A DNA stretch of 64,000 nucleotides from Rhodococcus sp. SGAir0479. Lineage in GTDB: Bacteria; Actinomycetota; Actinomycetes; Mycobacteriales; Mycobacteriaceae. Below the pieces are notes generated by a model, which did not search any database, was not told the origin of the DNA, and saw only the letters and a list, made by a program, of their open reading frames with translations. Shown here piece by piece: positions 7,715 through 51,697 of the stretch. The position numbers and the translations under genes were made by a program. The stretch lies in assembly GCF_005484805.1 (NCBI RefSeq), contig NZ_CP039432.1, positions 2,356,001 to 2,420,000 on the forward strand, in the 5' to 3' direction. Each line of letters begins with the position of its first letter. Positions within the stretch are counted from its first letter, which is position 1.

Positions 7715-8136
7715 TCAGCCGGCGAGCACCGCGACGTCCTCCGCCACCGCCCCGTCCTCGTCCGGGGTCTCGGCGTCGGGTGCGTCCGCGCTGTCGGGTT
7801 CGGTCGTCGCCCGTCCCCGCCCCGACCGATCGAGCCGGGCGGTGCAGCGCGCCAGGTCGGGTCCGACCGCGCTGGCCCGCATCTCCAGGTCGGTGCGCGG
7901 TTCCCCGTCCCGGGTGCGGTATTCGTTGGTGCGCAGCTCGCCGTGCGCGATGATCGGGTCGCCCTTCATCAGCGACGCGCCCACCCCCTGCACCAGCCGA
8001 CGCCAGCAGCTCACCGTCAGGTACAGCGTTCCGCCGTCGACCCACTCACCCGACTCGCGGTCGCGGCGGCGGACGTTGCTGGCCATCCGGAAACTCATGA
8101 CCTCCTCCCCGGACGCGGTCTCCCGCTTGACCGGAT
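7715..8136 (-). pseudogene. ssb: single-strand DNA-binding protein, 3' part, cut off by prophage insertion
   Basis: The fragment encodes VKRETASGEEVMSFRMAS, WVDGGTLYLTVSCWRRL and the rest of an OB fold plus an acidic tail ending EDVAVLAG, lacking a typical DDDIPF tip. Its first ~16 codons lie 43.5 kb away at 51650-51697; joined at the shared CGGAT the frame is continuous. By position next to ettA it is the second, SSB-like paralogue rather than the rpsF-ssb-rpsR gene. The phage arm leaves the frame open upstream and provides an ATG at 8140 with GGAAG directly before it, so a product lacking the first beta strand is conceivable. A terminator just upstream should limit transcription. Confidence 0.9.
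8132..8136. other. attL: attL core (CGGAT)
   Basis: To the left lies host ssb (codons from VKRET on); to the right lies phage DNA. The pentamer is repeated at 51650-51654. A short identity of this size is typical for large serine integrases, which need only a 2-bp crossover. Confidence 0.85.
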
Positions 8137-8164
8137 ACATCTTCCGTAAGGGGTGGCGATCGAA

Positions 8165-8201
8165 AGAAAAAGACCCGACGCGGTTGCAGCCGCTCGGGTC
8201 T
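8165..8201 (-). terminator. intrinsic terminator inside the left prophage end
   Basis: On the minus strand AGACCCGA pairs with TCGGGTCT (8194-8201 and 8171-8178) and is followed by CTTTTTCTTT. In the lysogen it stops transcription toward the ssb remnant; on the circular phage genome it would lie just upstream of the integrase gene and shield it from the late operon. Confidence 0.75.
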
Positions 8202-8228
8202 GGTGTCCGACTGTCGAAGGAGTCGAAC

Positions 8229-9098
8229 GTGCCCAATCATACCCCTACCAGCGGAATTAGGCGAGGCCCCCGCCTGACCGCCCACTTCACGACGATCAGC
8301 AACGCCGTCATGAACGACGACCGCTTAAGCTTCCGCGCTCGCGGCGTCTTGATGTGGCTGCTGTCCAAGCCGACCGACTGGCGCACCCGGTCCGTCGCGA
8401 TCGCGGCGCAGTCCCCGCGTGAGGGACGCGAGGCGATCCGCACTGCGATGCGGGAACTCGAAGAGTTTGGGTACCTAGTGCGCGAGCGCGTCCGTGACGG
8501 AGAGACTGGCCAGTTCGCGATCGTCCAGATCATCCACGAGGTTCCCGCCGACACCGAGCCCTCCCCTGCTCCGGAGCCCAGGAATCCGGGCTCCGGGAAC
8601 CCGACCGCCGGGATTCTGGGCGCTACAGAAAGAACTGATCGAGCAAGAATTGAAACCAACCACCCACCGCGCCCCACGACGAAGCCGCTGACGTCGCCGA
8701 CGCACCGAGCACCGCGGCGAACGGGTGTCGTGGTGTCGAAGCACTCGAACGGGCAACTCGACGCTCTCGCGGCCGCGTGCCGTGACCGCGGCCTGACGGC
8801 CAGCTGGACCGCGCTGAAGCCCGAGCAGTGCCAGATGATCGAGGCCTTGCTCGAAACCCACGGCGCCGCCGCCCTCGCCGACGCTGCACGCGCGGCGCAC
8901 CGCCCCCACAATCCGACGCTGTACGCCCAGGGCTGGATCGGGGCCTGGTCGACGCTGCCACTGCCCCGCCCCGCCACGACTGCACGGCCGGCATGCGGCG
9001 CATGCGTCAACGGCTGGATCGAGGACCCCGACGACCTGTACGGAAAGAAGCCCGCGGTCCGCTGCGCCTGCCGCTCCACCGAGGCGGTGGCGGCATGA
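8229..9098 (+). CDS. winged-helix and zinc-ribbon phage protein (replication or regulatory)
   Basis: 289 residues from GTG 8229, preceded by GAAGGAG at good spacing. Residues ~14-95 (LTAHFTTISNAVMNDDRLSF, then RGVLMWLLSKP and AMRELEEFGYLVRERV) form a winged-helix region of the type found at the N-terminus of replication initiators and in actinobacterial phage and ICE proteins. The middle is Pro/Thr-rich linker. The C-terminus has CGACVNGWIED...CAC, a possible zinc ribbon. First gene of a rightward operon next to attL; the next start overlaps its stop (ATGA). Role in replication is inference. Confidence 0.6.
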   Translation: MPNHTPTSGIRRGPRLTAHFTTISNAVMNDDRLSFRARGVLMWLLSKPTDWRTRSVAIAAQSPREGREAIRTAMRELEEFGYLVRERVRDGETGQFAIVQIIHEVPADTEPSPAPEPRNPGSGNPTAGILGATERTDRARIETNHPPRPTTKPLTSPTHRAPRRTGVVVSKHSNGQLDALAAACRDRGLTASWTALKPEQCQMIEALLETHGAAALADAARAAHRPHNPTLYAQGWIGAWSTLPLPRPATTARPACGACVNGWIEDPDDLYGKKPAVRCACRSTEAVAA

Positions 9099-9265
9099 CG
9101 GTCGCTGAGCAACTGACACAGATCCTCGATGCGTCCACAGTGCGCACCTGCACCGAAACGCACGACCGCAACCAGACGCCCGCCCTCGCCTACGCCCGCG
9201 CGCTCTGGGCGCTCGAGGCCGACCTCCGCGCACTCGCCGCGACGATCGAAGGAGCCCACCAGTGA
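9095..9265 (+). CDS. small phage protein, unknown function
   Basis: 56 residues, mostly helical (ALAYARALWALEADLRALAAT), no Cys and no membrane segment. Its ATG overlaps the previous stop and its own end overlaps the start of the DUF2637 gene, so translation of the three is coupled. I do not recognise a family. Confidence 0.6.
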   Translation: MTVAEQLTQILDASTVRTCTETHDRNQTPALAYARALWALEADLRALAATIEGAHQ

Positions 9266-10089
9266 CCCGCTTCCGTTTCGACGCCGTCGCGACATACGTG
9301 ATTGCGATCCTCGCTTTCGCCCTGTCGTACGCCAACCTCGCCGACCTCGCCGCACGGGCCGGGTACGGCACCGTCATGGCCCACGCGTGGCCGCTCGTCG
9401 TCGACGGCCTCGCGGTCGTCGCGACCTCTGCGGTGATGCGGCTGCGCGGCGGCCGCGCCTACGCGTGGATCCTGCTCGGCGCATCCACCATCGTGTCCGT
9501 CGTCGCGGGCGGCGCGGCGCACCTGTTGCCGGCGGGCCCACTCCCCGGGTGGGCGGGCGCGGCCGTCGCAGTCATACCGCCGCTGTGCCTACTCGTCGCG
9601 CCGCATCTCGCCGTGCAGCTCCACCGCGACGCAGTCGCCGCCACGGACGCCGACGCACTCGACGCGGCGACGCGCGACGCAAACGCCACCGACGCGCCCG
9701 GCGCACCCGACGACGAGCCGACGCGGGAGCCTGAGCCCGACACCGACGCGCCGGTCGTCACGCTCGTCGCCGTGCCCGACCCGGCTCCTGTCTCCGACGC
9801 ACCCACTGACCAGGAGCGACGCACCACCGCGCAGGCCGACGCACTGCGCACCGCCACGGCGTCGGATGCCGACGCACCTGCGACCACGGGCGACGCGGCG
9901 CGTGAGTCGAACGACACGAAGTGGCCCCGTGCGGTGCATCTGCTCGTGACGCGCCCGGACATGTCGCAGCGCGCCGTCGCGGCCGACGTCGGCATGTCCG
10001 ACGCAGCACTGCGACGACGCATCGGGCCCGGCGGGCGCGACGCACTCGTGGCAGCGCACCGCGGCGCGGCCGACGCGCTCGCCGGGTAA
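9262..10089 (+). CDS. DUF2637 membrane protein with C-terminal helix-turn-helix
   Basis: 275 residues from GTG 9262. Four hydrophobic segments lie in the first ~115 residues (around 8-30, 40-60, 66-88 and 92-115), the arrangement of DUF2637 proteins common on actinobacterial plasmids, ICEs and phages. A long acidic Asp/Ala/Thr/Pro-rich stretch with many DA repeats follows (~125-220). The last ~50 residues (TRPDMSQRAVAADVGMSDAA) look like a helix-turn-helix. A membrane-tethered DNA-binding role, for example in replication or superinfection control, is possible but unproven. Confidence 0.7.
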   Translation: MTRFRFDAVATYVIAILAFALSYANLADLAARAGYGTVMAHAWPLVVDGLAVVATSAVMRLRGGRAYAWILLGASTIVSVVAGGAAHLLPAGPLPGWAGAAVAVIPPLCLLVAPHLAVQLHRDAVAATDADALDAATRDANATDAPGAPDDEPTREPEPDTDAPVVTLVAVPDPAPVSDAPTDQERRTTAQADALRTATASDADAPATTGDAARESNDTKWPRAVHLLVTRPDMSQRAVAADVGMSDAALRRRIGPGGRDALVAAHRGAADALAG

Positions 10090-10129
10090 GCACGTGTGGA
10101 AGAAACCCGCCGCTGGCATGATCCGTCGC

Positions 10130-13850: not shown

Positions 13851-13853
13851 CGA

Positions 13854-14132
13854 TCACTCCTTGCGTTCGGCGGCGTAACGCTCGATCTCGGTGATCTGGC
13901 GCTCGGTGATGCCGTTCGGGGTGTTCTTCACCCCGACGGTGGTGAGTGCGGCGATCGCGACGAGGACCCCGACGACGATCTGGTTCGGTAGGCCCATACC
14001 GGACGCGATGATCGTCCACACGATCGACACCACAAGGCCCATGAGCGATGTCGCGGTGTTCGAGAACTTCCGGTACCAGGGCTGCGATTCGAGGACGGGG
14101 CGCAGCAGGTCGCCGATCAGCTGAGGGTTCAT
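13854..14132 (-). CDS. phage holin (two membrane helices)
   Basis: 92 residues with two hydrophobic segments (~24-45, SLMGLVVSIVWTIIASGMG; ~48-66, QIVVGVLVAIAALTTVGV) and a charged C-terminus (ERYAAERKE). Size, topology and position immediately after the endolysin, with TGATG overlap, fit a holin that permeabilises the inner membrane at lysis. Family not identified beyond that. Confidence 0.75.
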   Translation of the reverse strand: MNPQLIGDLLRPVLESQPWYRKFSNTATSLMGLVVSIVWTIIASGMGLPNQIVVGVLVAIAALTTVGVKNTPNGITERQITEIERYAAERKE

Positions 14133-15544
14133 CACTTGGCTCCGATCTCGTCGAGGATTGCTTGCGCGCGGCGCTTCGATTCGTTGACGAGCTCGGGGTA
14201 GCCGAACCCGTCTGTGTTCCCGACGATCCCGTCGCGGGCGACCCGGCGGACGAGGTCGACGTACTCCGGGATTCCCTTGCGTGCCTGGTCCTCGACGAAC
14301 CGTTCGTGTTCGCGGGCGTCGATGTTGGAGAGGAACGCGGCGAGGCGGTGCTTCGCCTCGTCGGAGTCCCGGTAGATCGAACGGGACGGGAACAGCTTCC
14401 CGAGTTCGTCGTCAGCGACGGACATGAGTGCCTCCTGCAGGTTGGGGACGCCCGCGAACAGGGCGTCGAGTTCGAGGGTGGTGCCGCGGAACGCGTTGAC
14501 GTCGACCGTCTGGCCGGCCACACGTCCGCGTTCGGAGAACTGCAGCAACTGCACCGGTGCTGCGCCGGGGTGGAAGGGCTCCCAACCCTTGTAGCCGTTG
14601 CCCGGGTACAGGTTCGACGCGTAGCCGGTGCCGGCGACGTAGTCGCTGTTCCAGACGCCCACGGGGAGGCCGGACAGGTTCGGCGCCCCCATGTGGTCGC
14701 GCCAGTACCAGCGCGGGATGTACACCGGGAGTAGGCGGACACCGCGCTCCCGGTATGCGCTGATCCGGGCGAGCAGGTCGTCGAGGCTGCCCCGGTTCTC
14801 GTCGTCCTCGTAGTCGATCTGCAGCGGGAAGTCGGTGCCGCCGGCATGGTCGAGGTAGGTGTCGGCCTCACGCTGCGGATCGGTGTCGACCCGGCAGAAG
14901 GCGTATCCGCCGAACCGTCCCGTGAAGTGCTTGCGCATCTCCTCGCGGGCCCGCGGCCAGAACGGGTCGCGCCAGGTTCCCTCGGTGACCTTGTGGGTGG
15001 CCCACGTGAAGCCTTCGGCACGGGCAGCGGCGAAGTCGAAGTTCTTCTGGTGGTTGGAGACATCGATGCCGTACTGAACCGGTGGCAGCAACGTCCCGCC
15101 GCCGGCGAACGGGTAGGGGTCCTCGGCGCCAGTGAGGAGCGCGGCGGGGTCGAGGCGGTCCGGCCCGGGTGGCACCCATACGAAGCGGTGCCACTCGAGG
15201 TGCAGGTGCGGGTCGACGCCGCCGTTCGAGCTGCGGTCGGGGTTGATCGAGGCGATGCGTTGGCCGGCCTCCACCCGCTGTCCGAGTTCGACCTCCGGGA
15301 TGACATGTCCGTAGACGGTGGTGCCGCCGCCGTCGGCGGTCGGGTGGTCGAGGACCACCCAGCGGCCGAACCCGTCGGCTGGACCGGCCATGATGACGGT
15401 GCCGCCCTGGACGGCGTAGACGGGCAGCCCCCCGGAGCCGCCCACCCGGCCGAAGTCGGTGCCGTAGTGGAACTCGGCGCCGCGCCGTCCGAACTGCGAG
15501 GTGATGATGCGGCCGCGTTCGAGCGGCCAGAACTTCGGAGCCAT
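14132..15544 (-). CDS. lysA: endolysin with M23 peptidase and GH25 muramidase domains
   Basis: 470 residues from ATG 15544. Residues ~15-120 form an M23 metallopeptidase: HYGTDFG supplies the first His and Asp ligands and HLHLEW the HxH pair. Residues ~160-360 form a GH25 lysozyme fold: GIDVSNHQKNFDF at the start with the catalytic Asp, LQIDYEDDE in the middle and a late VQLLQFSE strand. The C-terminal ~110 residues are probably a wall-binding or linker region. It cuts both peptide cross-links and glycan of peptidoglycan. Followed by the holin gene. Confidence 0.92.
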   Translation of the reverse strand: MAPKFWPLERGRIITSQFGRRGAEFHYGTDFGRVGGSGGLPVYAVQGGTVIMAGPADGFGRWVVLDHPTADGGGTTVYGHVIPEVELGQRVEAGQRIASINPDRSSNGGVDPHLHLEWHRFVWVPPGPDRLDPAALLTGAEDPYPFAGGGTLLPPVQYGIDVSNHQKNFDFAAARAEGFTWATHKVTEGTWRDPFWPRAREEMRKHFTGRFGGYAFCRVDTDPQREADTYLDHAGGTDFPLQIDYEDDENRGSLDDLLARISAYRERGVRLLPVYIPRWYWRDHMGAPNLSGLPVGVWNSDYVAGTGYASNLYPGNGYKGWEPFHPGAAPVQLLQFSERGRVAGQTVDVNAFRGTTLELDALFAGVPNLQEALMSVADDELGKLFPSRSIYRDSDEAKHRLAAFLSNIDAREHERFVEDQARKGIPEYVDLVRRVARDGIVGNTDGFGYPELVNESKRRAQAILDEIGAK

Positions 15545-17168: not shown

Positions 17169-18028
17169 CGGGGCCTCCTCGACTTCGGTCGGATGGTGCA
17201 CACCGCCGACGAGGCGGCGTTACCGGCGATCACGGTGAGTTTCTTCAGCGAGAACCAGGTGCGCCCCGGCACCGCGTTGCGGAACCGCTGCGCGCCCATG
17301 TCCCCGTACAAGTTCGGGCGCATGTTCGACTTCGCTAGCCGCTTCGACGGATCGGTGTGGAAGAGCGCGACCTCCCCGGCCTTGAGCATCGGCGTCGTGA
17401 CGACGGTGTCACCGTCCGGGATCCGGAAGATGCCGGGTCCCTTGACGACCCACTCCGGGTACGCCTTGCGGTCGCCGGAGTTGTAGATCTTCAGCCGTTC
17501 GGTGGATTGGCCGTTGCTCCACTCGCGGGTTTCTTCGATGCCCGACCAGTACGAGTTCCCGGAGATCACCGGGACCAGGTAGGGGACGAACCTGTCGAAC
17601 GCCGGGTCCATCTTGTCCGCGATCCGCGGCTGGTCGGCGAGCCGGATGTCGATGTACCGGAGCCCGAACGTCTTCGTGTACACCTGCAGCTGAGATTCGA
17701 AGATGTAGTCGATGTCCGACCAGAACCCGTCGTTGACGACCTGGAACGGCCGGCCGAACGCCTCGTGCACGTAGACCGGGAGGAAGAACTCCCGCGGGTC
17801 CATCACCGCGCCGAGCCAGCGGGCGCCGTCGCCGCGGGCGGACTTGAACCACTGATGGATGCCCTTGGGCTCTTGGTAGTCCGCCCAGCCGGGCGCGAGG
17901 ACTGCACCGCAGTCCCGGCGCCCGACCAGGTGGTGTTCGGACAGGTACCACGCCCGCTCCGGCAGACCTTGCGCCGCGCCGGGGCCGACGAGGACCACGT
18001 TCGCGGTGTCGTCCGGAAAGAAGGTCAC
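17165..18028 (-). CDS. distal tail (Dit-like) minor tail protein
   Basis: 287 residues from GTG 18028, overlapping the tape-measure stop as GTGA with AGGAG 8 bases before. The N-terminal part is a beta domain; the C-terminal part (ISGNSYWSGIEETREWSNG, KIYNSGDRKAYPEWVVKGPG) resembles the jelly-roll portion of Dit/Gp28-like proteins, where NxGD..YP marks the fold. It would form the hub below the tail tube. Position between tape measure and Tal-like gene is canonical. Confidence 0.72.
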   Translation of the reverse strand: MTFFPDDTANVVLVGPGAAQGLPERAWYLSEHHLVGRRDCGAVLAPGWADYQEPKGIHQWFKSARGDGARWLGAVMDPREFFLPVYVHEAFGRPFQVVNDGFWSDIDYIFESQLQVYTKTFGLRYIDIRLADQPRIADKMDPAFDRFVPYLVPVISGNSYWSGIEETREWSNGQSTERLKIYNSGDRKAYPEWVVKGPGIFRIPDGDTVVTTPMLKAGEVALFHTDPSKRLAKSNMRPNLYGDMGAQRFRNAVPGRTWFSLKKLTVIAGNAASSAVCTIRPKSRRPR

Positions 18029-21000
18029 ATCCACACTCCTGCCGTTTCGAACTGCTCGATCTGTCTTGCCTTGTGAATGCCGGTCGCAACCGCGTTCGAG
18101 TCGTATCCGTTCGGCAGCTGGAACACGTACTGCCTGGCATCGTCGAAGGTGTCGGCGGGCTGTGGCGCCGCGGCGGCGGGCTGGTCCATCGACGAGCGCA
18201 TGATGGCGCGGAACGACTGGAACATCTCCCGCGTTGCTTCCATCTCGACCGTCTCCCGCGGGTTCAGCACGAACTCGCGCTGCCGGGAGAGGTTGAGCCC
18301 GAGGTCGCCGGGTTCGAGTGCGCCACCGTTGTCGTAGACCTTCACCCCGAGTGACTGCAGGAACGCCTTCGCCCAGTCCGGCACGAACGCCGCTGCCTGC
18401 CCTTCCGGGCCGACGAGGTCGGTGATCCACGACGGCAGCTGCACGGCCGGCTGGGTGCCGTCCGCGCCGAAGCCGTCGGGGGCGGCTTTCGCGACCGCCA
18501 GTCCGGCGTTGATGAGCGGTCCGAGGTCGTCGGAGGCGCCGTAGTAGCCGAGGACGTCGGAGACGTTCGACGACACGAACTCCTTCGCCACCTCGCCGAA
18601 CAACTCGGACCATGTCGACGGAAGCCCGGAGGGCCGCTCGAGATCGGCCTTCCGGTTGTTCGCGCGCATGAGCGCGATGTCGGCTTCCTGCATCTCGCCC
18701 GGGGTTCGGTCCGGTTTCGCGTAGACCTCGTCGCGTTCCCGCGATGCGCGGTCGACCGCGAGTTGCGCTTCGAGTCGGTCGAGCTGTTCGTTCGACATCG
18801 ACTTTCCGAGTGCCGGCGCCGGTGGTGCCGGCGCCTCGCCACGCAACGCGGCTGCCTTTTCCCGTTCGAGATCCTCGACCCGGATCTCCGCCTGCCGCAG
18901 CTGGATCCGGTCGTCCTCGTAGTCGCGCGGTGTGCGCTTGTCGTCCTTCTTCGGGTTCAGGTCGTCACGAGCCTTGTCCACCGCAATCCGTGCACGCTGC
19001 AGATCGAGCTCGTCCTTCTCCGTCCACTCCTTCTTCTTGTCCGACGAGACGCTGTACCCGAGCACGACGGCCTGCGGCTGCCCCACCGGGCCGTTCACTG
19101 CCCAGTGGACGTGGTCGCGGTGCTCGGCCATCGTGCCCGCCCCGTAGAAGCCCATCCCGTCGCCGACGTACGCGCCGTTCTTGATGTTGCGGTCGAACGG
19201 CGAGTGGATCAGCTCGAGCGTCTGGGACAGGTAGTTGTCGGCGATGAACGCGGCCAGCGCCCGCATCTCCGGGGTGGAGTCGTAGCCGTTGGAGAAGTCC
19301 GCGGCATGCCCGGTCGAGTGGTGACCGTTGTCGGTGAACCGCAGCCCCGACGACATCTGCATGCCCGGGAACCGGGACTGCACCACCGCGGTCATCGAAT
19401 CGACGATCTCGCCGCCGTTCGCGTACCCGCGGACCAGGCCCGCCTGCAGCGCGGCACGGAACCGGTACACACCCGCCTGCCCGCCGAGCCGGTCGACGTC
19501 GTCCGTGGTGAGCATGTGCTCACCCGGCATCGCGAGGATCGGCACCGAATCCTTCCCCCGGATGCCGCCGCTGATCTCACCGCCGAGCGCCTTCGGCTGT
19601 CCCGGTAGCGGCAGAGCCGACGGGATGTTCGATGCCACGGCCGCAGGGATCGGGTTCGGGTTGAGCACGCGCAGCGTGACATTCGCGAAGTAGTTGCCGC
19701 TCGTGACCGCGTTGATTTTCGACGTCGCCGGGTCGGTGTTGGCGTCGACGACGACCGTCTTGCCGGGCAGCTCCTTGTCGATCACGGCCTGCAGGTCCGC
19801 CAACGTCTGCTCGTTCGGAGCGGACAGCCTGACGATGCCCGGCTTGCCGTCCACGTTCTCGACGCTGATCTTGACCTCGTCGAGCTTCGCGAGCGTTTCT
19901 TTCGTGAGAGCGGTGGTCGGGATCTCGATGCCCTCGGCGTTCCGGTCGAGCAGTCCCTTGACGACGACCAGTTCCTGCTTGACGGAGTCCGCACCCTTGA
20001 GGGAGGCAACGATCTCGAAGTTCTTCGGGAGCAGACCCGCTTCCTCGGACATCTTCCGGATCTCGCCCACAGAGAGCCCGGTCGCGGTCGCGAGCTGTTG
20101 GAACGCCTCCTCGTTCTTCTGCCAGATCGGCGCCATATCGGCACCGGACGCGGCGGCCTGGATCGTCGCGTCCTTGATGTCGTTGAGCTTCGTCAGCAAA
20201 CGATCGCCGTTGGTGGTGGTCGTGTTGACCGAGCCGTCGGCGTTCTTCAGTGCCTGCCCGAACCCGAGCGAGGCATCCCACACGTCGCGGGTTGCCTCGG
20301 CAGTTTCCCGGATCTGCCGGTTGTAGGCCTGCATCGCGGCGCCGACGTCGATCGGCTTCCCCGACAGGATGTCGAGCGCCGTCTTGAGTGCGTTCGTCCG
20401 GTCAGCAGCCGACGACGCGTCGTCGGCCAGGGTCTTCACGGCCTCCGACAGACCGAAGAACCCGGGGGTGGTGTTCTGTGCGACGTCGCGGGTCTCGAGG
20501 ATCCGCTGACGGACCTCGTTCAGCTTGTCGGCGGCGGCACCGCCGCCGTCCCCCATGCCGCGCAGCTTCTGTTCGATGTCCGACCACTTGGCGTTGTCGA
20601 GCATGGCCTGCGCGACCTGCTGGTCGGTCATCCCCAGATCTTGGATCGCCTGCGCTGCCTGGCGGTTCGCCAGACCGATCCGGTCCTTCTCCTGCGAGAT
20701 GTCGTCGGAGGAGCCGCGCCAGAACATGACGACGTCGCCGATCATGTCCTTCGTGACGTCGGTCCACCGCGCGTCGTTCGCGGCCGCGGCGTCGAACTGT
20801 TTCGCGAGCGAGGACACCTGGCTCGTCACGTTAGCGATCGCGAGGTCGTCGAACTTGCCCTTCGACCGCGCGAGGATGTCGCCGAGCTCGGACTGCGAGA
20901 CCGCGATCTGCCGGACAGCGTCGTCGTACTGCTTCGTCAGCGCCTTCGCCTCGCTGACCGACGCCATCCACGCAGTGAGTCCGATCCCGGCAGCGGCGAG

Positions 21001-22629
21001 ACCGGCCGCCCACGGGCCACCGAACGCCGAGACCACACCGCCGAGCGCCGAACCGAGCCCGCGCACGCCGGCCACCGCGGTGCCGGCGAACGCGCCGCCG
21101 AGCCGAACAGCCTCACCGGTGGCGGCCCGCAGGCTCCCGGTCAGCGGTCCGGACGCCGCCGCGAGTGCGACCTGCCGCGTCGCGAAGTCGGCCGCGGGCC
21201 CCGCGACGGACCGGTATGCGGCCCCCATGCTCGCGATCGCCGGCACCCGCGTTTCGAGGACCGCGATCGAGGACGTCAGTCGGCCGACCTGCTCCCCCGA
21301 CATCGCGGCGAGGGACTGCTGCACGCGCAGCTCGTCGTTGAATCCGCGCAGGCTCGCCACGCCCCGGCCGCCGAGGTCGGACAGGAACCCGCCGAGCCCG
21401 GTGACCTTGAACGCCACCGCCGCGACCGCGGCCGCCTGTAGCGCGGGGTCGAGTTCCATGAACTCCGAGGCCGCCTTCGCCGCAACCGATCCCGCCGTTT
21501 CGATACCACTGATGATCGTCGGGGTGACGTCGGTGATCTTGTCGGCCGCGCCGCGGGCGAGCGACTCGAGCGGCCCGTCGACGAGGTCGTACAGGCGCAG
21601 CGAGAGATCCTCGGCCGCGTTCTGCACCGACCCGATCGCTCCGGGCAGGCCCTGCGTCTTCGCAGCGGCAACCTCCGCGGCCGCACCCTGCCGGCTGATG
21701 GCCTCGCGCATCGAGTCGTAGCCAGTCACGCCCTGCTCGGCCGCGATACCGGCCAGCCGCATCGCGTCCGACCCGAACAGCGTGGCCGTCGCCGCCTGGT
21801 ACTGCTCGTCGGTCATCCGCTCGGACGCCGTCTTTAGTTGCGCGAACAGCTCGCGCATGCCGACGAACTTGCCCTGCGCGTTGTAGATCGTGAGCCCGAG
21901 GTCTTCGATCGCTGCCTGCGCGGGCTTGCCCTGATCAGTCAGAGACAGCAGCGCCGTCTTGAGTAGCGTGCCCGCGTCGCTGCCGGTGATGCCGGCGTTC
22001 GCGAACAGACCGATCGTGGCGGCCGTGTCCTCGAGGGAGACACCGAACTGATTGGTTACGGTGCCCGCCTGCGCAAGCCCGTACGCGACGTCGGTGATCT
22101 CCGCCGACGACGCGTTCGCCGCGTTCGCCAGGACGTCGGCCGCGGTCGCCGCGTAACTCGCGTCCAGACCGTACGCCTGCAGCGCCTGCGACTGGATGGT
22201 CGCCGCCTGCGCGGCATCGACGCCGGCGGCCGCGGCGAGCTGCAGGGTGCCCTTCGCCGCACTCATCGCCTGATCGACCGAGAACCCGCCCTTCGCGAGC
22301 TCGGTCATGGCCAGGGCCGCGTCCGACGCCGACGTGTTCGGCAACTCGATGTCGTTGCCGAGCTGCTTCGCGCGTTCGCTCACGATGGCCATCTGCGCGG
22401 CCGACGCCTGCGAGACCGCGGCCATCTCGTTCAGCGACGTCGTGTATTCGTTGCCGAGCTTGATGACCTGCTTGCCTGCGCTGACGAGCGCTGCGCCACC
22501 CAGGGCGAGCCCCAGCGTTCCGGCGAGACGCTTCGCCATCCCGAGAGCGGGCTGCATCCCGGACTGCAGCTGCGCGGGGATGCTCCCCGTTTCGAGTCCG
22601 ACCTCGATGTCGATCCGACCACCGGCCAC
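18025..22629 (-). CDS. tape measure protein with embedded M15-type peptidase domain
   Basis: About 1534 residues. The N-terminal ~400 residues hold the TP901-type core (QLGNDIELPNTSASDAALAM, FANAGITGSDAGTLLKTALL). Several hydrophobic helices follow. At about residues 1083-1178 there is a peptidase-like module: SSGLRFTDNGHHSTGHAADF and EHRDHVHWAV give the H-x6-D and HxH pattern of M15 carboxypeptidases, probably to open peptidoglycan during DNA entry. The start is taken at GTG 22629 (VAGGRIDIEVGLETG) because GTGGGGG precedes it; GTG 22641 is the alternative. The length sets the tail length. Confidence 0.9.
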   Translation of the reverse strand: MAGGRIDIEVGLETGSIPAQLQSGMQPALGMAKRLAGTLGLALGGAALVSAGKQVIKLGNEYTTSLNEMAAVSQASAAQMAIVSERAKQLGNDIELPNTSASDAALAMTELAKGGFSVDQAMSAAKGTLQLAAAAGVDAAQAATIQSQALQAYGLDASYAATAADVLANAANASSAEITDVAYGLAQAGTVTNQFGVSLEDTAATIGLFANAGITGSDAGTLLKTALLSLTDQGKPAQAAIEDLGLTIYNAQGKFVGMRELFAQLKTASERMTDEQYQAATATLFGSDAMRLAGIAAEQGVTGYDSMREAISRQGAAAEVAAAKTQGLPGAIGSVQNAAEDLSLRLYDLVDGPLESLARGAADKITDVTPTIISGIETAGSVAAKAASEFMELDPALQAAAVAAVAFKVTGLGGFLSDLGGRGVASLRGFNDELRVQQSLAAMSGEQVGRLTSSIAVLETRVPAIASMGAAYRSVAGPAADFATRQVALAAASGPLTGSLRAATGEAVRLGGAFAGTAVAGVRGLGSALGGVVSAFGGPWAAGLAAAGIGLTAWMASVSEAKALTKQYDDAVRQIAVSQSELGDILARSKGKFDDLAIANVTSQVSSLAKQFDAAAANDARWTDVTKDMIGDVVMFWRGSSDDISQEKDRIGLANRQAAQAIQDLGMTDQQVAQAMLDNAKWSDIEQKLRGMGDGGGAAADKLNEVRQRILETRDVAQNTTPGFFGLSEAVKTLADDASSAADRTNALKTALDILSGKPIDVGAAMQAYNRQIRETAEATRDVWDASLGFGQALKNADGSVNTTTTNGDRLLTKLNDIKDATIQAAASGADMAPIWQKNEEAFQQLATATGLSVGEIRKMSEEAGLLPKNFEIVASLKGADSVKQELVVVKGLLDRNAEGIEIPTTALTKETLAKLDEVKISVENVDGKPGIVRLSAPNEQTLADLQAVIDKELPGKTVVVDANTDPATSKINAVTSGNYFANVTLRVLNPNPIPAAVASNIPSALPLPGQPKALGGEISGGIRGKDSVPILAMPGEHMLTTDDVDRLGGQAGVYRFRAALQAGLVRGYANGGEIVDSMTAVVQSRFPGMQMSSGLRFTDNGHHSTGHAADFSNGYDSTPEMRALAAFIADNYLSQTLELIHSPFDRNIKNGAYVGDGMGFYGAGTMAEHRDHVHWAVNGPVGQPQAVVLGYSVSSDKKKEWTEKDELDLQRARIAVDKARDDLNPKKDDKRTPRDYEDDRIQLRQAEIRVEDLEREKAAALRGEAPAPPAPALGKSMSNEQLDRLEAQLAVDRASRERDEVYAKPDRTPGEMQEADIALMRANNRKADLERPSGLPSTWSELFGEVAKEFVSSNVSDVLGYYGASDDLGPLINAGLAVAKAAPDGFGADGTQPAVQLPSWITDLVGPEGQAAAFVPDWAKAFLQSLGVKVYDNGGALEPGDLGLNLSRQREFVLNPRETVEMEATREMFQSFRAIMRSSMDQPAAAAPQPADTFDDARQYVFQLPNGYDSNAVATGIHKARQIEQFETAGVWM

Positions 22630-22648
22630 GGGGACCCCCACTCTGTAG

Positions 22649-25617: not shown

Positions 25618-26054
25618 GCCCTCCCCTTTCACTAACAGGCAATACACATGTTTATCCACAGGCGAACCTGGTGTATTCCCCAAACCTTAGCGGAGCAAGG
25701 TGCTGCAGCCTAACCTCCTGCTTATCGACTTTCAAGTTTCACCTGGTCGGCCGCTCCGGCTGGACACCGTCCGCCAATCCACAGTGCAGATTCGCGGCAC
25801 CCACCCACAGGCCCGGCAACCAGCCGGCCGGAGGCCTCCTCCACGTACGGCCGCGGCCGCCTGTAGTGAGCGATTACGGGCGGGCGTGACGCTCGGCACA
25901 GAACCGCGAATCGGGCCATACAGGTCAGACGCGATCGATAGCTTCTGTGTCGCGACGCCCGGTCCACACCCCCGACTTGGACCGGGCGTCGCACCGTCCG
26001 GCTACTGGGAACGCGAACTCGCCGGTAGACGACCGATAAGCGACAATCCTTCGC
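25618..26054. promoter_or_regulatory. 437-bp divergent control region
   Basis: No credible gene lies here. At 25640-25680 AATACAC and GTGTATT form an inverted pair around CCACAGGCGAACCTGG, a possible operator for the leftward ImmA cassette. At 25952-25992 there is a perfect 15-bp hairpin (25952-25966 with 25978-25992, 11-base loop), upstream of the rightward SGNH gene. If the tyrosine recombinase has an attP, this AT-richer stretch is a candidate. Confidence 0.5.
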
Positions 26055-35397: not shown

Positions 35398-36073
35398 CTC
35401 GCCCTCGCCTCCTCTCACTTCTCGCAGTTGCAGTCGAGCGCCCCTTGCTGGCGCCGAAACAGATCACCGTCGTGTCGGACTTCTCCGGCCAGCCGCTGGC
35501 CTCCGCATCGCACGCCGCGGCGTGGGCGAGCACCGACGTCATCGCGGCGTCGATCTTGCGGTGCTGCTCGCCGCCAGGCTTGCCGAGGATGTACCGCTGA
35601 CCGTTCTGCGCGACCTTTATCGCATTCGCCATGTGCACACGCGTGATCGGGCACCCGTCATCCTTGATCCGCCCCTCCTTCAGATCCACGAGGAACCGCT
35701 CAAGTTCCTCGTGCATGAACTTGACCCGGTACGTCGGCCACTCGACGACGCGCTTCTCGCCGTACTTCTGCGCCCACTCCCCGATCTCAGTCCGCCAACC
35801 CGGCGGGTCGTAGTAACCGCGCGAGACATCCCACCGGTCGTGGATCTCGTCGAGCGCTACCGCGACCTCGTGGCGCGGGATCTGCCCGCCCCACTCCGCC
35901 GGATTCCAGATCGTCGGCCGCTTGACGGGCCCGTAGCGCGGGGTGAACAGCCGCCCAGATCGAGTGCGACACCGGATCACCGTGAAGTCGTCACTGTCCG
36001 AGCCGTCGAACCCGACACTGACCTGCGTACCGCGCTCGGGGTTCGGGAGCCATTTGATCTCACGCACGGGCAT
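35378..36073 (-). CDS. terminase large subunit, C-terminal nuclease part
   Basis: 231 residues from ATG 36073 (MPVREIKWLPNPERGTQVSV). It carries the RuvC-like nuclease: VGFDGSDSDDFTVIRC gives the first Asp, and KIDAAMTSVLAHAAACDA near the end gives the last acidic residue. The ATPase half lies in another frame upstream and overlaps by 14 bp. It may be translated separately (GGGAG lies 8 bases before the ATG), or be one protein broken by a one-base insertion, for example in the CCC at 36068-36070. Confidence 0.82.
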   Translation of the reverse strand: MPVREIKWLPNPERGTQVSVGFDGSDSDDFTVIRCRTRSGRLFTPRYGPVKRPTIWNPAEWGGQIPRHEVAVALDEIHDRWDVSRGYYDPPGWRTEIGEWAQKYGEKRVVEWPTYRVKFMHEELERFLVDLKEGRIKDDGCPITRVHMANAIKVAQNGQRYILGKPGGEQHRKIDAAMTSVLAHAAACDAEASGWPEKSDTTVICFGASKGRSTATARSERRRGRGGSVFG

Positions 36074-37097
36074 ACGCGCTCTCCCACAGTCCATCCGGAA
36101 GCCACGCGCCCATACCCGAGACCTTCATGTTTCCGTAGAACCGCTGCGCCTCGGCTGGATTCGTCTGCATCAGGTCCATCGCCTCGGCGTCGATCGCATC
36201 CAGTTCGATCCAGCTGCAGCCGTCGTAGACGTACCGCAGGATCTTGCGCCGATCCCGCTTGTTGTTCCATGACAGACCCGCCGGTGGCGTGCGCAAAAAC
36301 TTGAACACGTCTTTCACGGTGCCCTCGAAAGTCTGTTGGGCATCGGAGTTTTCGGCCGGATCCCACATGTTCGTCGTCGCGATCGACCGACCCTGCATAC
36401 CGGCTACACCACGCCGCTGCGTAGACGCGACCTTGATCATCTTGTTCTCTTTGGTGTACAGGCCGTTCTCATCCTGCAGCACGAACGTGATCGGGTTACC
36501 GAGCCGCGAGTTCGCGGACGCGGTGACGACGTCGATCCGGCACTCGTCACCTGGCAGCCGGATGAAACCCTCGCGGATCGCCATCAACTCGGAGAGCGGG
36601 CCGTTGCGGATCATCGTCTTCAGCGGGTCGTAGACGTTGTCGACCTGGTCTTCCGACGTTGCCGTCAGCTGGATAAGCGGCGACGGGTGCGGCATACCCT
36701 TCGGCTCGCCGGCCCGGTACTCGTGCTCGAATCCGCAGTCGCAGCCGTGGTCAGCGCACCGGTACACCTCACCGTCTTCGGCCCACCCCGCGAACAGGGA
36801 GGGCCCGACCGCTTCGATGCACACGATCGTCGCCGACCACGGGCCCTTGCCGCACTTTTGCGGACCGACGATCAGCGATCGGCGGTACACGAATGCGGTG
36901 CTCCTCAACGGATTCTCGGGAATCCACTTCGCCTTCGGTCGCACCCGATAGTGCTGCGCGGTGCAGTAGAACTGCCAGTCAGCCGACACGAACGGCTCCC
37001 CTTTGTGGTGGCCGGTCGGGATCGAGCAATGCGCCTGGACCCACGCGTCCTGCAGGTGCGCGAGGGTCGGAAAGTCGACGACGTAGTCAGCCGACAT
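36060..37097 (-). CDS. terminase large subunit, N-terminal ATPase part
   Basis: 345 residues from ATG 37097. Packaging ATPase motifs: a degenerate Walker A SLIVGPQKCGKGPWSA, Walker B-like ITFVLQDENG, and the coupling region GRSIATTNMWDP. A Cys/His patch (YRCADHGCDCGFEHEY) lies in an insert. The frame ends SAYARA and stops where, in normal actinophage TerL, the nuclease domain would continue; that domain is in the +1 frame immediately after. Together they make ~575 residues, the normal TerL length. Confidence 0.85.
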   Translation of the reverse strand: MSADYVVDFPTLAHLQDAWVQAHCSIPTGHHKGEPFVSADWQFYCTAQHYRVRPKAKWIPENPLRSTAFVYRRSLIVGPQKCGKGPWSATIVCIEAVGPSLFAGWAEDGEVYRCADHGCDCGFEHEYRAGEPKGMPHPSPLIQLTATSEDQVDNVYDPLKTMIRNGPLSELMAIREGFIRLPGDECRIDVVTASANSRLGNPITFVLQDENGLYTKENKMIKVASTQRRGVAGMQGRSIATTNMWDPAENSDAQQTFEGTVKDVFKFLRTPPAGLSWNNKRDRRKILRYVYDGCSWIELDAIDAEAMDLMQTNPAEAQRFYGNMKVSGMGAWLPDGLWESAYARA

Positions 37098-46240: not shown

Positions 46241-47686
46241 CTACTCGTCATCGGCGGCAGCTTCGGCGCGCGCGAGATCGTCGAGGAGACCGGCTTCGAC
46301 GTCCGACCACTCGTAGCCGAGCGGGCCGCCGAGCTCACAGCGCCATGCGTTGGCGGACTGGAGTGAGTACGGCGGGCAGTCGGGAAGCCACCGGGACAGG
46401 TTGTCGAGTGCGAGCTCGGCGGGGAGCTGCTCGAGGTAGCGGAGCAGGATCACCAGCTTCGCAGCGCTCATGCTCTGCGCCGCTCCCCGGACGCGGTCCG
46501 CGAGGATGTCTCCGCGGTCATCGGTGTTGTCGAGGACGGCGGGAAGGCTGAGCATGTCGACGACGAGCTCGAGGACGTCCACCTCAGTCTCGTCGAGCTG
46601 GTCGGAGACCATCCCGATCAGCAGTTCATGGGCGGTGTCGGCGCTCCCCTCCACCAGAACGTCGCGAAGGTGGTCGCGGCGCACGGTGGCCGCGGTGGTG
46701 AGGTCGGCGGCGAGCTGCTCGCGGCGGGCCTGCTCGGCGGCGGCCTCGGTCTTTGCCTTCTGTGCGGCGCGGGCTTCCTCGACGGAGGGGCGCTCGGTTG
46801 TCGGCGCGGCATCGACCTCTTCGTCGGCTTCGTCCTCTGTGACGAGGACGTGCCAGGAGACGCATCCGTCGATGGCGCCGTAGCCGGAGTCGTGGAACGA
46901 CGCGCAAACCGATTCCGAGGTGCGGTCTTTCGGCTCGGCCGGGAGCTTCGCCCACAGCAGGTTCACTCCGCGCGCCTTCGTCTGCTCGAGCCGGAACGCC
47001 TCACGCTCGTCGTTGTCCATCACGCGGACGCCTTCGGTGCGTAGCGCGGCGACGAGCTTGGTGCCCGCGTCGGCGCGGCTTCGGGCGTTCTTCGCGTTCT
47101 GCACAGCCCACGACCAGTTCGCGGTGCCGGGGTACTTCGCGAGCGTCTCGTACACGTTCGGATAGGCGGCGAACTGCTGAAGTGTGAGGGCCTCGTCGAT
47201 CGTGATCTGCCGGTCGATGACCTTCGTTCGGACGTCCTCCGGCGCTGCGGCGATCTTCACCCGTTCGCGGATCGTTTTCTGCGTGCGTCCGGTTCGCGCG
47301 GAGATCGCCTTGACGTCGATGGAGAGGTCGAGGAGCGCCTGGTAGGCGTCGCCCTCTTCGACGGCGTTGAGGTCCGAGCGTTGCAGGTTCTCGGTGAGCA
47401 TCGCCTGCAGCTGGTCGGCCCCGCCGGTGAGGTCATGACGGATGACGCACGGCACCGTCTTCAGGCCGGCCTTCTTCGCGGCGGCGTGGCGCCGGTGCCC
47501 GGCGATGATCGTCCACCGCTGGTCGAGGATCTCGTGGGGCGCAACGACGAGAGGCTGCAGGACACCCTGCGCCTTGATCGAGGTAGCGAGGTCGCTGACA
47601 TTGCCGACTGCAGTGCGCACGTTTCGCGGGTGCGGAACGAGATGGGCAAGTGGGAGCTGTTCGAACACTGTTGTGGTGGTGGTCAT
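46241..47686 (-). CDS. ParB/Srx-type nuclease-domain protein
   Basis: 481 residues from ATG 47686. Residues ~8-100 form the ParB N-terminal domain: LVPHPRNVRTAVGNVSDLA, GVLQPLVVAP, the catalytic-type WTIIAGHRRHAAAKKAG and TENLQRSDLNAVEEGDAY. A HTH region follows (KAISARTGRTQKTIRERVKIA). The rest is a long helical extension. Such phage ParB-like proteins may bind or nick DNA, use CTP, or regulate early genes; no ParA partner is present, so plasmid-type partition is unlikely. Confidence 0.82.
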   Translation of the reverse strand: MTTTTTVFEQLPLAHLVPHPRNVRTAVGNVSDLATSIKAQGVLQPLVVAPHEILDQRWTIIAGHRRHAAAKKAGLKTVPCVIRHDLTGGADQLQAMLTENLQRSDLNAVEEGDAYQALLDLSIDVKAISARTGRTQKTIRERVKIAAAPEDVRTKVIDRQITIDEALTLQQFAAYPNVYETLAKYPGTANWSWAVQNAKNARSRADAGTKLVAALRTEGVRVMDNDEREAFRLEQTKARGVNLLWAKLPAEPKDRTSESVCASFHDSGYGAIDGCVSWHVLVTEDEADEEVDAAPTTERPSVEEARAAQKAKTEAAAEQARREQLAADLTTAATVRRDHLRDVLVEGSADTAHELLIGMVSDQLDETEVDVLELVVDMLSLPAVLDNTDDRGDILADRVRGAAQSMSAAKLVILLRYLEQLPAELALDNLSRWLPDCPPYSLQSANAWRCELGGPLGYEWSDVEAGLLDDLARAEAAADDE

Positions 47687-49205: not shown

Positions 49206-49343
49206 CTAAGCAGCCTGGTCGGAGAGCGCTATCTTGCGGAACTCGGCCTTGACCGCGTTCTCCTGGAAGATAGTGAGTGGCGTTGCGCGAGCGAGGGTCT
49301 GGTCGAGCCATGCCTGCATGGCGGGCGTCCACTCGGTGGTCAT
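49206..49343 (-). CDS. small early protein, unknown (45 residues)
   Basis: ATG 49343 overlaps the Cro-like stop (ATGA). TTEWTPAMQAWLDQTLARAT then FQENAVKAEFRKIALSDQAA: an amphipathic helical peptide. Second gene of the leftward early operon; function unknown. Confidence 0.65.
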   Translation of the reverse strand: MTTEWTPAMQAWLDQTLARATPLTIFQENAVKAEFRKIALSDQAA

Positions 49344-49576
49344 GCCGCCGCCGAGGTCACAGCGAGGCGCATCAGTTCGGCGACGTCGATGTCGACCAGC
49401 TGGGCGATCAGTTCGATCTCGTCGAGCTGAAAGGGTCTGTATCCCTTCAGTCGCGCGTGGAGGGTGGTCGGGGAGATGCCGGTCTGTCTACAGACTTCGC
49501 GGAGGCTGATGTTGGCGTCGTCGAGCGCCTTCTGAACGATGCCGGCCACCGCCCGCGATAGCTTCGGTGGTTCCAT
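49340..49576 (-). CDS. Cro/excisionase-position HTH regulator
   Basis: 78 residues from ATG 49576. An XRE-type HTH spans ~12-65: IVQKALDDANISLREVCRQTG, SPTTLHARLKGYRPFQLDEI. It is the first leftward gene facing the rightward repressor, the place of Cro in lambdoid switches. A TAGCAT -10-like box lies 7 bases before the ATG and TTGCGA 17 bases further up, suggesting a leaderless transcript. Probably represses the repressor promoter or starts the lytic program; naming as Cro is by position. Confidence 0.75.
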   Translation of the reverse strand: MEPPKLSRAVAGIVQKALDDANISLREVCRQTGISPTTLHARLKGYRPFQLDEIELIAQLVDIDVAELMRLAVTSAAA

Positions 49577-49709
49577 ACAGAACATGCTACGGCTCCATAT
49601 GGAACATCGCAAGCAAATGGAAGAAGTGGTGCAAATCACCACTTTAGTGATCTTGAAAGGGTCTAAATGGAACACAAGGGGTGGCATTCGGCGGTAACGT
49701 GTTCCACAT
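49570..49709. promoter_or_regulatory. divergent lysis/lysogeny switch with repeated TGGAAC operators
   Basis: The 131-bp gap between the two HTH genes, far richer in A/T than its surroundings, holds four half-sites of one motif: GTTCCAT 49570-49576, ATGGAACAT 49599-49607, ATGGAACAC 49667-49675 and GTGTTCCAC 49699-49707. The outer two overlap the start codons of the two genes. Candidate -10 boxes TAGCAT (leftward) and TAACGT (rightward) each end about 7 bases before an ATG, so both messages may be leaderless. Confidence 0.72.
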
Positions 49710-49962
49710 GGCACAAGCCCCGAGGCGAGTAGGCAAGTACACCGCGGCAGTCGCTGAAATCGTTCGAGACGCCGCCGAGCGACTCAACCTCACGCACGCC
49801 GCAATCGCCGAACGGACCGGGATCGCACGCCCCACAATCACGAAGATCCTCACGGGCGATCGTGCGATGGATGTCGAGCAGCTCGCGCTGCTCGCTAACG
49901 CGATAGACATGAGCGTCGCCGACCTACTCGCGGCCGCCGAGAAGCGCCTTCTACGCGGCTGA
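49708..49962 (+). CDS. prophage repressor (XRE family), probable immunity repressor
   Basis: 84 residues from ATG 49708. HTH at ~14-65: AAVAEIVRDAAERLNLTHAA, IAERTGIARPTITKILTGDR, then MDVEQLALLANAIDMSVADL. It is the only rightward gene in the right half of the prophage and faces the leftward early operon, as expected for a CI-like repressor. It lacks a C-terminal cleavage/dimer domain, so induction must be by another route, possibly the ImmA/IrrE peptidase at 25105. Converges with another HTH gene, overlapping it by 12 bp. Confidence 0.75.
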   Translation: MAQAPRRVGKYTAAVAEIVRDAAERLNLTHAAIAERTGIARPTITKILTGDRAMDVEQLALLANAIDMSVADLLAAAEKRLLRG

Positions 49963-50156
49963 GAACAACGAAGAGGGCAGCACGCCGAACACGGCCGCCA
50001 CGTCGGCGACCGACTCGACGGACATCGCCTTCGGTGATGCCAGCCACCCTTCGATCAGGTGGGGCTTTCCCCCAATCGTGAAGCCAGCCCCCGTACGTCC
50101 AGGCCCACGCGTTCCATACCCGCGGCGATCGCTCGCGCGAGAGCAACATCAGGCAT
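49951..50156 (-). CDS. second XRE-type HTH protein, frame broken near 50061
   Basis: ATG 50156 reads PDVALARAIAAGMERVGLDV and RGLASRLGESP; one extra C at the CCCC run (plus-strand GGGG 50061-50064) continues as HLIEGWLASPKAMSVESVAD and VAAVFGVLPSSLFSAA to the stop at 49951. The repaired 68-residue protein is an XRE-type HTH resembling the repressor in layout. It lies between repressor and integrase. Without repair it stops after ~33 residues. Confidence 0.62.
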
Positions 50157-50260
50157 ACAGCTCGCCCCCATACCAAACAGTCGATCTTCTTCTGGGCATG
50201 AGAGTAAACCGGAGCGCCGACAGGGCGGAAGGCCCGGTCATACCTACCCGGAAGTAGGGA

Positions 50261-51606
50261 TCAGAGCCACTTCAAACGGATCAACTCCGGGTCGAACTTC
50301 GGGCCCGGCTTTCCGCGGTCGATGGTGATCTCCACCAGGTTTCGGACAACCGTCCGTTTCGCGATCACCGGCATCTGCTCCCATCGCACCCGGGCGTTCG
50401 TCCCGAGCAGCTCCCCCACTGCCGGCGGCACGACGACCGCGGCTCGCCGCTCGGCGGCGCGGATCTGCGGGAGCAACTTCGCTTCGATCCGGGCGAGTGA
50501 TGCCGCGGAGAGTTCGCCCGCCGCCGCCTTGTCGCAGAAGTCGTCCAGCTGAGCCCGCAGTCGAGCGGCCTCCCGTTCCGCATCGGCGACGTCGTCGTCG
50601 ACGAGCTCCTGCAGGCCGGTCATCTGCTCGCACCGGGCGATGATCGCCTCGGAGACCATCAGGTCAACAGGTTCGCTCCGCCGGTAGACGCAGTGGTTCC
50701 GCAGGCACCCGTACGAGTTCCCGCCGTGACTTTTCTTCCGGCCCATGGACTCGCCGCAGACACCGCAGCGCGCGATGCCCGACAGCAGATGCACGGGCGC
50801 GCTCCCTCGCGTCGTCTTCCGCCTGGGGTCCGTCAGAATCGAACGGATGACGCGGTGGTCCTCGACGTCGATCAGCGGCTCCCACACTGCCGGCGTCAGC
50901 ACGCCGAGGTGTGTCCTCAGGCCGGCGTAGGTTGGGCTCAGCAGCATCTGCCGAACCTTCTGCGTGTTCCATCGCTTGGAGCCGCGCGGAGTGGGTGTGC
51001 CGCGATCGTTCAGGTCGTTGCAGATCGAGTACATGGTCTCGCCGGCGAGTACACGCTTCGCCAGTTCCTGGACGATCGGCGCGGTCACCTCGTCTGGCAC
51101 TCGGCGGCCATCGTCGGAGAGTCGATACCCGTACGCGATGCGGCCGTGCGCCCGCCCCTGGGCGGCGGCCTGCGCGTGCGCGGCTTTGATGCGCGATCGG
51201 GCGTGGTCGATCTCGTGGCGGGCGACCGCGCCGACGATGCGCGCGGTCATCTGGCCGGCGGGGTGGAGAGGTCGAGTTCTCCGGCCTGCACGGTCCGCAC
51301 GGTGATGCTGCGGCGCTCGCACAGGGTGATGAATTCTTCGAGTTCGGACGGGGACCTGTGGAGTCGGTCGGTGTGCCAGGCGATGACCGCCTGGGCCTCG
51401 CCGTGGTCGAGGGCGTCGAGCATGGCGCGGTACTCGGGGCGCGGTTTGCCCGAGTAGGCGGAGATGTCGTTGTCGGAGAAGACTCGCGCGACGGTCCAGC
51501 CGAGCTGATCGGCGAGCTTCTGGCAGTCCTCCCGTTGCCGTTCGACGCCGAGGCCGGCGCCGACGCGGTCCTTCGAGATTCGTGTGTAGACAACGGCAAC
51601 GGTCAT
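50261..51606 (-). CDS. int: large serine integrase (frame changes near 51260)
   Basis: ATG 51606 reads TVAVVYTRISKDRVGAGLGV with the catalytic Ser in YTRIS, RQREDCQKLA and IAWHTDRLHRSPSELEEFI. At LSTPP the frame must gain one C (plus-strand GGGG 51260-51263) to continue as AGQMTARIVGAVARHEIDHA, the recombinase domain (YGYRLSDDG, ILNDLNDRGTPTPRGS-like block), the zinc ribbon CGVCGESM...CLRNHC and a coiled coil. Repaired length ~449 residues, normal for phiC31/Bxb1-type enzymes. TAGACT 6 bases before the ATG may be its -10 box. Confidence 0.9.
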
Positions 51607-51628
51607 GGATACAGTCTAGTCGGTATCG

Positions 51629-51697
51629 TCACCGGTTATCCACATTGAACGGATCGGTGATGACCGTGCCGACCACAGTGCCGTGTGTCTCGTACAT
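51629..51697 (-). pseudogene. ssb: single-strand DNA-binding protein, 5' part, running into phage DNA
   Basis: ATG 51697, with AAGGGGGAAG before it, reads MYETHGTVVGTVITDP, the first beta strand of an actinobacterial SSB, then leaves the host sequence at CGGAT (51650-51654) and ends FNVDNR-stop in phage DNA at 51629. The remaining ~140 codons are at 7715-8136. The native promoter therefore now reads a 22-codon stub and then the integrase gene 23 bp further on. Confidence 0.9.
51650..51654. other. attR: attR core (CGGAT)
   Basis: Phage DNA lies to the left and the ssb start to the right. Together with 8132-8136 it defines the element; the integrase gene starts 44 bp to the left. Confidence 0.85.

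Follow-up and report, generated by a model that had tools for sequence, protein, structure and literature searches.

How does a prophage come to lie exactly within a gene for a single-stranded-DNA-binding protein (SSB), which recombinase put it there, what becomes of the gene, and why this gene? These questions are raised by a stretch of 64,000 nucleotides from Rhodococcus sp. SGAir0479 (NZ_CP039432.1, positions 2,356,001 to 2,420,000; this whole stretch is called the window below), in which a siphovirus-type prophage of 43.5 kb splits ssbB, a gene for an accessory SSB, at codons 15-16. We consider it very likely that a temperate phage integrated into a bacterial attachment site (attB) in ssbB by its own large serine integrase, with the crossover at the GG of a CGGAT core and with the loss of SsbB.

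Position of the prophage and the rebuilt attB

Read on the minus strand from position 51697, the 5' piece of ssbB gives MYETHGTVVGTVITDP, beyond which lies phage sequence; the 3' piece, on the same strand below 8136, continues with PVKRETASGEEVMSFR and runs to a stop at 7715. The core CGGAT is common to both ends (8132-8136 and 51650-51654), and when the flanks are joined at this core, a single open SSB frame of 154 residues results. The initial annotation had placed a prophage exactly inside an ssb gene, with an attB that could be rebuilt as an uninterrupted SSB frame; core and fragments were found at these positions and the rebuilt frame is intact in relatives, so that both claims stand. Its suggestion of a protein-coding attachment site used by a serine integrase also agrees with the results, the site being codons 15-16 of ssbB and the integrase gene adjoining the right-hand site (attR). 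An attachment site in a tRNA gene was considered and rejected, as the window is without any tRNA. It is nearly certain that the prophage lies within ssbB.

Comparison with related genomes shows the state of the gene elsewhere. The genus set comprises 14 genomes called Prescottella, the window's genome (G000) included. In 12 of the 13 others, the rebuilt SsbB is matched from residue 1 onward with 76-85% identity; the window's own genome matches it from residue 16 onward only. The remaining genome, G001, has the main ssb and no ssbB orthologue in an assembly rated 100% complete, and ssbB was not found within 1.5 kb beyond its conserved flank gene. Downstream of that flank gene (L149) lies unrelated sequence with a transposase, as judged by eye. 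A junction script was given 12 relative loci and located the start pattern in six; in all six the junction DNA is uninterrupted, four reading ACCGATCCG exactly as rebuilt and two reading ACCGACCCG. A family search with SsbB gave a match at 1e-30 in 260 of 401 genomes, and among the matches listed, all begin at residue 1 or 5 except that of the window's genome. The split is no chance artefact, and attB is conserved in nearly all genus members examined. An intact, uninterrupted ssb in relatives is what the initial annotation had expected, and no prophage-free relative with both fragments was found, nor any intact ssb that fits the flanks better. For the latter, the sole alternative was the main ssb, which was rejected at 38% identity.

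The closest named ssbB loci belong to Prescottella equi, Rhodococcus hoagii, P. defluvii and close Rhodococcus. The upstream flank gene is present in 73 of 80 named loci, and both flank genes are present in 13 of the 80, these stretches being about 10 kb or less. With PF00436, two SSB genes are found in the genome, the other being the main ssb at G000:C1:3956275. Hence, the interrupted gene is a paralogue, an accessory SSB whose domain is paralogous to that of a separate main SSB. The best solved relative of the rebuilt SsbB is chain 5gqo, which we take to be M. smegmatis SsbB. According to PMC8931766, which cites Singh 2018, MSMEG_4701/Rv2478c of M. smegmatis assists RecA in recombination repair as an accessory factor.

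The serine integrase and its phage site

The prophage end at attR is separated from the start codon of a large serine integrase gene by only 43 bases. Resolvase, recombinase and zinc-ribbon domains were all found across two integrase pieces, which were read and searched separately. Unbroken relatives exist in G149 (59% identity over the C-terminal part) and in a sibling phage, G401 (74% over the C-terminal part and 90% over the N-terminal piece); peptide patterns from the C-terminal part, searched in genome_contigs and viral_contigs, gave nothing that could be confirmed. When intact, this integrase would recombine the phage site (attP) with an attB spanning ssbB codons 15-16, most likely with crossover at the GG of CGGAT, a short shared core with GG as its non-palindromic central dinucleotide. 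In the rebuilt attP, the best dyad centre among those scanned is this same GG, where 15 of 27 pairs agree; about 0.2% of 20,000 shuffles do as well at any of the four core centres.

The site is supported most strongly by the sibling phage G401. Its capsid protein is 97% identical, its integrase is in one open frame, and an unbroken attP is all that separates the integrase gene from the left-end genes. This attP aligns with the rebuilt one ungapped across the junction, with the GG conserved and the core flanks diverged; therefore, a single phage site has been divided between attL and attR. In the symmetry scan of G401 itself, the same GG ties for best with one other centre (11 of 25 pairs). The 22-base attP junction was searched in viral_contigs, and nothing was found. 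Compared with the window, the order of the G401 record (L152, L234-L236) is circularly permuted: the unbroken serine attP stands in mid-record, and the phage is not integrated at that attP; the record ends fall in a stretch matching 26-28 kb of the window.

On the other hand, some observations weigh against this account. The rebuilt attB is without dyad symmetry (8 of 27 pairs, p 0.89). The integrase is now in two frames that overlap near 51250, for which a sequencing error is possible. In addition, none of 35 other integrase loci, with about 1.5-3 kb of flank each, adjoins an ssbB start: no match to SsbB residues 1-18 was found there, and the nine matches to other parts of SsbB are at chance level, with E of at least 0.55. 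One more match of this sort falls in the window's own locus. Therefore, ssbB is no common target of the relatives of this integrase. A common ssb target among them was likewise rejected, four relatives abutting an amino-acid permease gene; the closest integrase relative in the family set, G149, is one of these four. The initial annotation had proposed a look for other prophages at the same codon; none was seen at the 35 loci or among the matches listed in the 401-genome search.

The tyrosine-type recombinase gene inside the prophage (23660-24586), which is 96% identical in G401, also counts against the serine integrase, as it raises the alternative that this enzyme inserted the prophage and that the serine integrase is a relic. 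The prophage end, however, adjoins the serine integrase gene and not the tyrosine gene, the core is only 5 bp, and the attP dyad is centred on that core, where the unbroken attP of the sibling also lies. We regard insertion by the tyrosine recombinase as extremely unlikely. Another alternative is a reversible switch of the active-lysogeny type, in which the prophage would leave when required and make ssbB whole again. An attB rebuilt exactly in frame and an excisionase-family gene near the left end would suit such a switch, but the integrase lies in two frames, and with it the prophage would probably be unable to excise now. No strain with an excised copy was seen among the genomes compared, all of which are of other species. 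A switch of this kind is accordingly rated very improbable.

As predicted from its genes, the element is a temperate siphovirus-type phage: the DNA between the cores encodes a terminase, portal protein, protease, major head protein, major and minor tail proteins, tape measure protein and endolysin, so that packaging, capsid, tail and lysis functions are all represented, and exonuclease-, resolvase-, ParB- and repressor-like genes lie toward the right end (Table 1). Known phages share little with it; in megablast, no match extends over more than 3% of the query. The Gordonia/Rhodococcus temperate phages JuJu, Mellie and Shagrat, like the window phage, have a serine integrase, 39-45% identical over the C-terminal part; otherwise they have little in common with it. 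The segment 23660-25617, within the tail-gene block, holds the tyrosine-type recombinase and a metalloprotease, presumably ImmA-like, so that the prophage carries two integrase-type genes. Between G401 and the window, similarity ends just before two genes that follow the recombinase, and then comes directly a 26-base stretch (25858-25883) in which 25 of 26 bases are identical. Two convergent genes beside the tail genes (26055-28351; 289 and 476 residues) both resemble SGNH-type hydrolases by eye; one has a tail-fibre family match and the other weak tail matches.

Table 1. Features of the prophage and its flanks (positions in the window)
Coordinates	Strand	Feature	Basis
6480..7598	-	Host gene downstream of ssbB, neighbour in closest relatives	Synteny
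7715..8136	-	3' piece of ssbB, attL core to stop codon	PF00436, E 7.5e-14
7715..8140	-	Hybrid open reading frame, 141 residues (MYPVKRETA...), new ATG from phage end; without SsbB residues 3-15	Sequence
8132..8136	.	attL core CGGAT	Sequence
8171..8201	-	Hairpin then T run between phage and truncated ssbB; likely terminator	Folding z -3.27; conserved in sibling G401
9262..10089	+	Excisionase-family protein near left end; candidate directionality factor	phrog_733, E 4.5e-28
14132..15544	-	Endolysin	Phage family match
18025..22641	-	Tape measure protein	Phage family match
23660..24586	-	Tyrosine recombinase within tail-gene block, second integrase-type gene	phrog_1, E 5e-42; "tyrosine" from named phage matches
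25105..25617	-	Metalloprotease	phrog_87
28449..29054	-	Major tail protein	Phage family match
31374..32378	-	Major head protein	phrog_212, E 1.3e-77
33057..34058	-	Head maturation protease	Phage family match
34036..35370	-	Portal protein	Phage family match
35378..37097	-	Terminase large subunit, two open reading frames (35378-36073, 36060-37097)	Phage family match
46241..47686	-	ParB-like protein	Phage family match
49340..49585	-	Repressor-like protein	Phage family match
50261..51250	-	Large serine integrase, C-terminal piece (recombinase and zinc-ribbon), other frame	PF07508, PF13408 (on 50261-51322), phrog_95
51247..51606	-	Large serine integrase, N-terminal (resolvase) piece, 119 residues	PF00239, E 2.2e-23
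51650..51654	.	attR core CGGAT; its GG is the dyad centre of the rebuilt attP	Sequence, symmetry scan
51650..51697	-	5' piece of ssbB, codons 1-16 (MYETHGTVVGTVITDP), attR core included	Sequence, alignment of relatives
51890..53833	-	Host gene upstream of ssbB, conserved neighbour in relatives	Synteny

Fate of SsbB after integration

The insertion separates the start of ssbB, and presumably its promoter, from the remainder of the gene, and a phage hairpin, probably a terminator, now stands upstream of that remainder; SsbB is therefore very probably lost. A promoter scan of 7700-8700 gave no promoter. A scan of the same segment for consensus terminators listed a single site at 8663-8683, the imperfect hairpin at 8171-8201 being unlisted. 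Judged from the sequence, SsbB is probably non-functional, with the main SSB remaining to the cell, and an effect of this loss on host physiology is plausible.

A point on the other side is that the hybrid reading frame, with its own ATG, could still yield a truncated SsbB. In fact, the phage end gives the 3' piece a new in-frame start (MYP...) at 8138-8140, from which a 141-residue product is predicted, and a working SsbB might survive in this form. However, residues 3-15 are gone from the hybrid. In alignments with actinobacterial SSBs of solved structure, these residues match the beginning of the chain, a region that we take to be the first strand of the SSB fold. The terminator-like hairpin just upstream of the 3' piece speaks in the same direction. 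It is thus unlikely that the hybrid works as an SSB or that the lysogen retains a working SsbB.

Targets of related elements and a possible conflict with transformation

As ssbB is not shared by the relatives of the integrase, the gene on the start side of every PF07508 match was read in the 14 genus genomes. There are nine matches in five of these genomes, and seven of the nine abut a broken ssbB, dprA, tadA, tadE or flp, that is, five of seven distinct genes. In G007, dprA is in two pieces 10 kb apart with a recombinase between them, and dprA is the only target for which both halves of the broken gene were placed by position; each of the 13 other genus genomes has one dprA match, the G003 copy with an internal stop. 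The element at this G007 locus (L260, L261; G007:C5:50810-61508) carries a serine recombinase and is about 10 kb long; it interrupts dprA at the codons for Glu-Tyr, and these are present at both ends. Recombinases of G003 abut tadA (TIGR03819, 2.6e-74) and tadE (PF07811, 1.7e-4, weak and just under the cut-off). The small pilin gene flp (DUF4244) is abutted in both G002 and G010, with TadE just beyond flp in G010; the gene was identified as flp by its position and by a TGDSIV stretch common with the M. tuberculosis homologue, which is named Flp in PMC9531140. Two different serine recombinases in G002 (L242, L245; G002:C53) flank one Flp pilin remnant of about 22 residues, apparently two elements in one gene. 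The remaining two matches, both in G010, abut a transporter (L034, of the MFS type by eye, with a Pfam match below the cut-off) and a repair gene of the HhH-GPD type. One more locus, the tenth, was found in G003 by integrase similarity only and abuts comM/yifB (TIGR00368, 5.6e-25). G003 contributes three of these target loci, and its assembly has a rated completeness of 79% and contamination of 5%; moreover, hits on genes of the same tad locus do not count as independent events.

In the genus and in the wider integrase family alike, each locus was read on the integrase-start side only, from stop-free stretches within 160 bases and in an orientation chosen by eye. Thirty of 33 genome loci were run against Pfam; L036 was read by eye and via L242/L245, L061 was left out, and L048 has only 29 bases upstream. 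For 28 related-integrase loci, 17 targets could be named and 11 were unnamed. The named targets are an amino-acid permease at four loci (L039, L040, L041, L043), comEC at four (three by Pfam and L060 by eye, the latter with no Pfam or NCBIfam match), an NlpC/P60 peptidase at three (L046, L050, L053) and six single others. comEC itself was found in 245 of 251 genomes, with two matches in nine. Three of these nine (G021, G114 and G146) carry a related integrase, and their best comEC matches are weaker than most, as expected from a split gene; for G146, the target was read from the two-match count and the weaker match alone. Fragmented assemblies may explain the other two-match genomes.

Based on the results in the genus, it may be suggested that the pattern reflects a conflict between transformation and mobile elements in Actinobacteria, in which elements may disable host gene exchange. 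Pathway parts hit in such a conflict would be Flp/Tad-pilus uptake (flp, tadA, tadE), import (comEC) and single-strand handling (dprA, comM, ssbB), and selection would favour mobile elements that blunt the gene exchange by which they could be deleted. The gene names dprA, tadA, tadE (weak), flp, comM and comEC hold; a role of these genes, or of SsbB, in uptake by the present hosts is putative. With less confidence, the ssbB site may be no accident, because the serine-recombinase elements of the genus mostly abut DNA-uptake or recombination genes. A bolder proposal, which we entertain tentatively, is that phages and other elements with large serine recombinases in Prescottella and related Mycobacteriales have repeatedly evolved to knock out one uptake pathway, that an as yet unrecognised natural transformation works in these hosts and deletes elements, and that the ssbB prophage would mark SsbB as a member of the pathway. 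To our knowledge, Prescottella is not known to be naturally transformable. In PMC4322843, transformation of Micrococcus luteus is stated to require ComEC and Flp-pilus genes, and tad together with comEA/comEC is described as frequent in actinobacteria.

The chance of five of seven distinct non-ssbB targets (comM included) was estimated at 7e-12 if 15 of 4700 genes are uptake genes, and at 9e-8 if the definition is relaxed to 100 of 4700; both the list and the set sizes were chosen after seeing the data. These figures show only that the pattern merits a full census. A competing explanation, possible if somewhat doubtful, is that a conserved yet dispensable gene simply offers a safe harbour, that is, a stable and widely available attB; the loss of SsbB would then be neutral, and the pattern of uptake genes would reflect genes that are both conserved and dispensable. 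The presence of ssbB in 12 of 13 relatives and its absence from G001, despite the rated completeness of that assembly, fit this explanation. Of the 17 targets named in the wider family, 13 are not uptake genes, which speaks for a safe harbour and against the conflict, the amino-acid permease (4 of 28 loci) and NlpC/P60 (3 of 28) among them. Even against 1000 conserved dispensable genes, 15 of them for uptake, however, the five of seven targets would arise with a chance of about 1.6e-8, this set again being chosen post hoc.

If the pattern holds, the conflict seen in pneumococcus and Acinetobacter extends to Actinobacteria, and the genus is predicted to have, or to have recently had, working Flp-pilus-based transformation. 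The pattern also yields a testable gene list, in which SsbB is now included. No report of such a conflict for Actinobacteria was found in the open-access literature searched, subscription papers and supplements aside. By itself, the ssbB prophage adds one more case to a kind that is rare but already known, and the surrounding target pattern adds interest to it.

Among known systems, insertions into transformation genes are the broadest parallel. PMC12637031 describes pneumococcal prophages in or near competence genes, including ssbB, comYC and a competence-suppressing small RNA, and reads them as avoiding deletion by recombination; PMC11472951 describes comM interrupted by mobile elements in Acinetobacter. 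Here, as in these cases, elements lie in transformation genes, which in the present hosts are putative, whereas these hosts are actinobacteria and the set includes dprA, tadA, tadE, flp and comEC. In the mode of integration, the M. abscessus serine-integrase prophages are close: PMC8092301, in which the work on Bxb1 is cited, gives them a short core of 5-8 bp and a target in an open reading frame. Like Bxb1 in groEL1 and these prophages, the present element combines a serine integrase, a short core and a disrupted reading frame; the target genes are different, and here the integrase is in two frames.

The closest parallels concern the target itself, which the initial annotation had called unusual; this much stands, but the target is not new, as S. 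mitis phage phi-B6 and the pneumococcal PPH085 prophages precede it. According to PMC2828477 and PMC12637031, phi-B6 disrupts ssbB near its 5' end; according to PMC8637289, the core of the PPH085 prophages adjoins SPD_RS09110, a gene for a single-stranded-DNA-binding protein, and their integrase is of the serine type. As here, the two are prophages whose short core is found where an accessory ssb paralogue begins, and PPH085, as here, has a serine integrase; the ssb paralogue of their hosts is described as competence-linked. In contrast to both, the present prophage has a Rhodococcus-like host of another phylum, not known to be transformable, and codons 15-16, within the coding frame, contain its core. 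The use of this unusual target, the early part of an accessory ssb, by serine-integrase prophages has thus arisen in two phyla.

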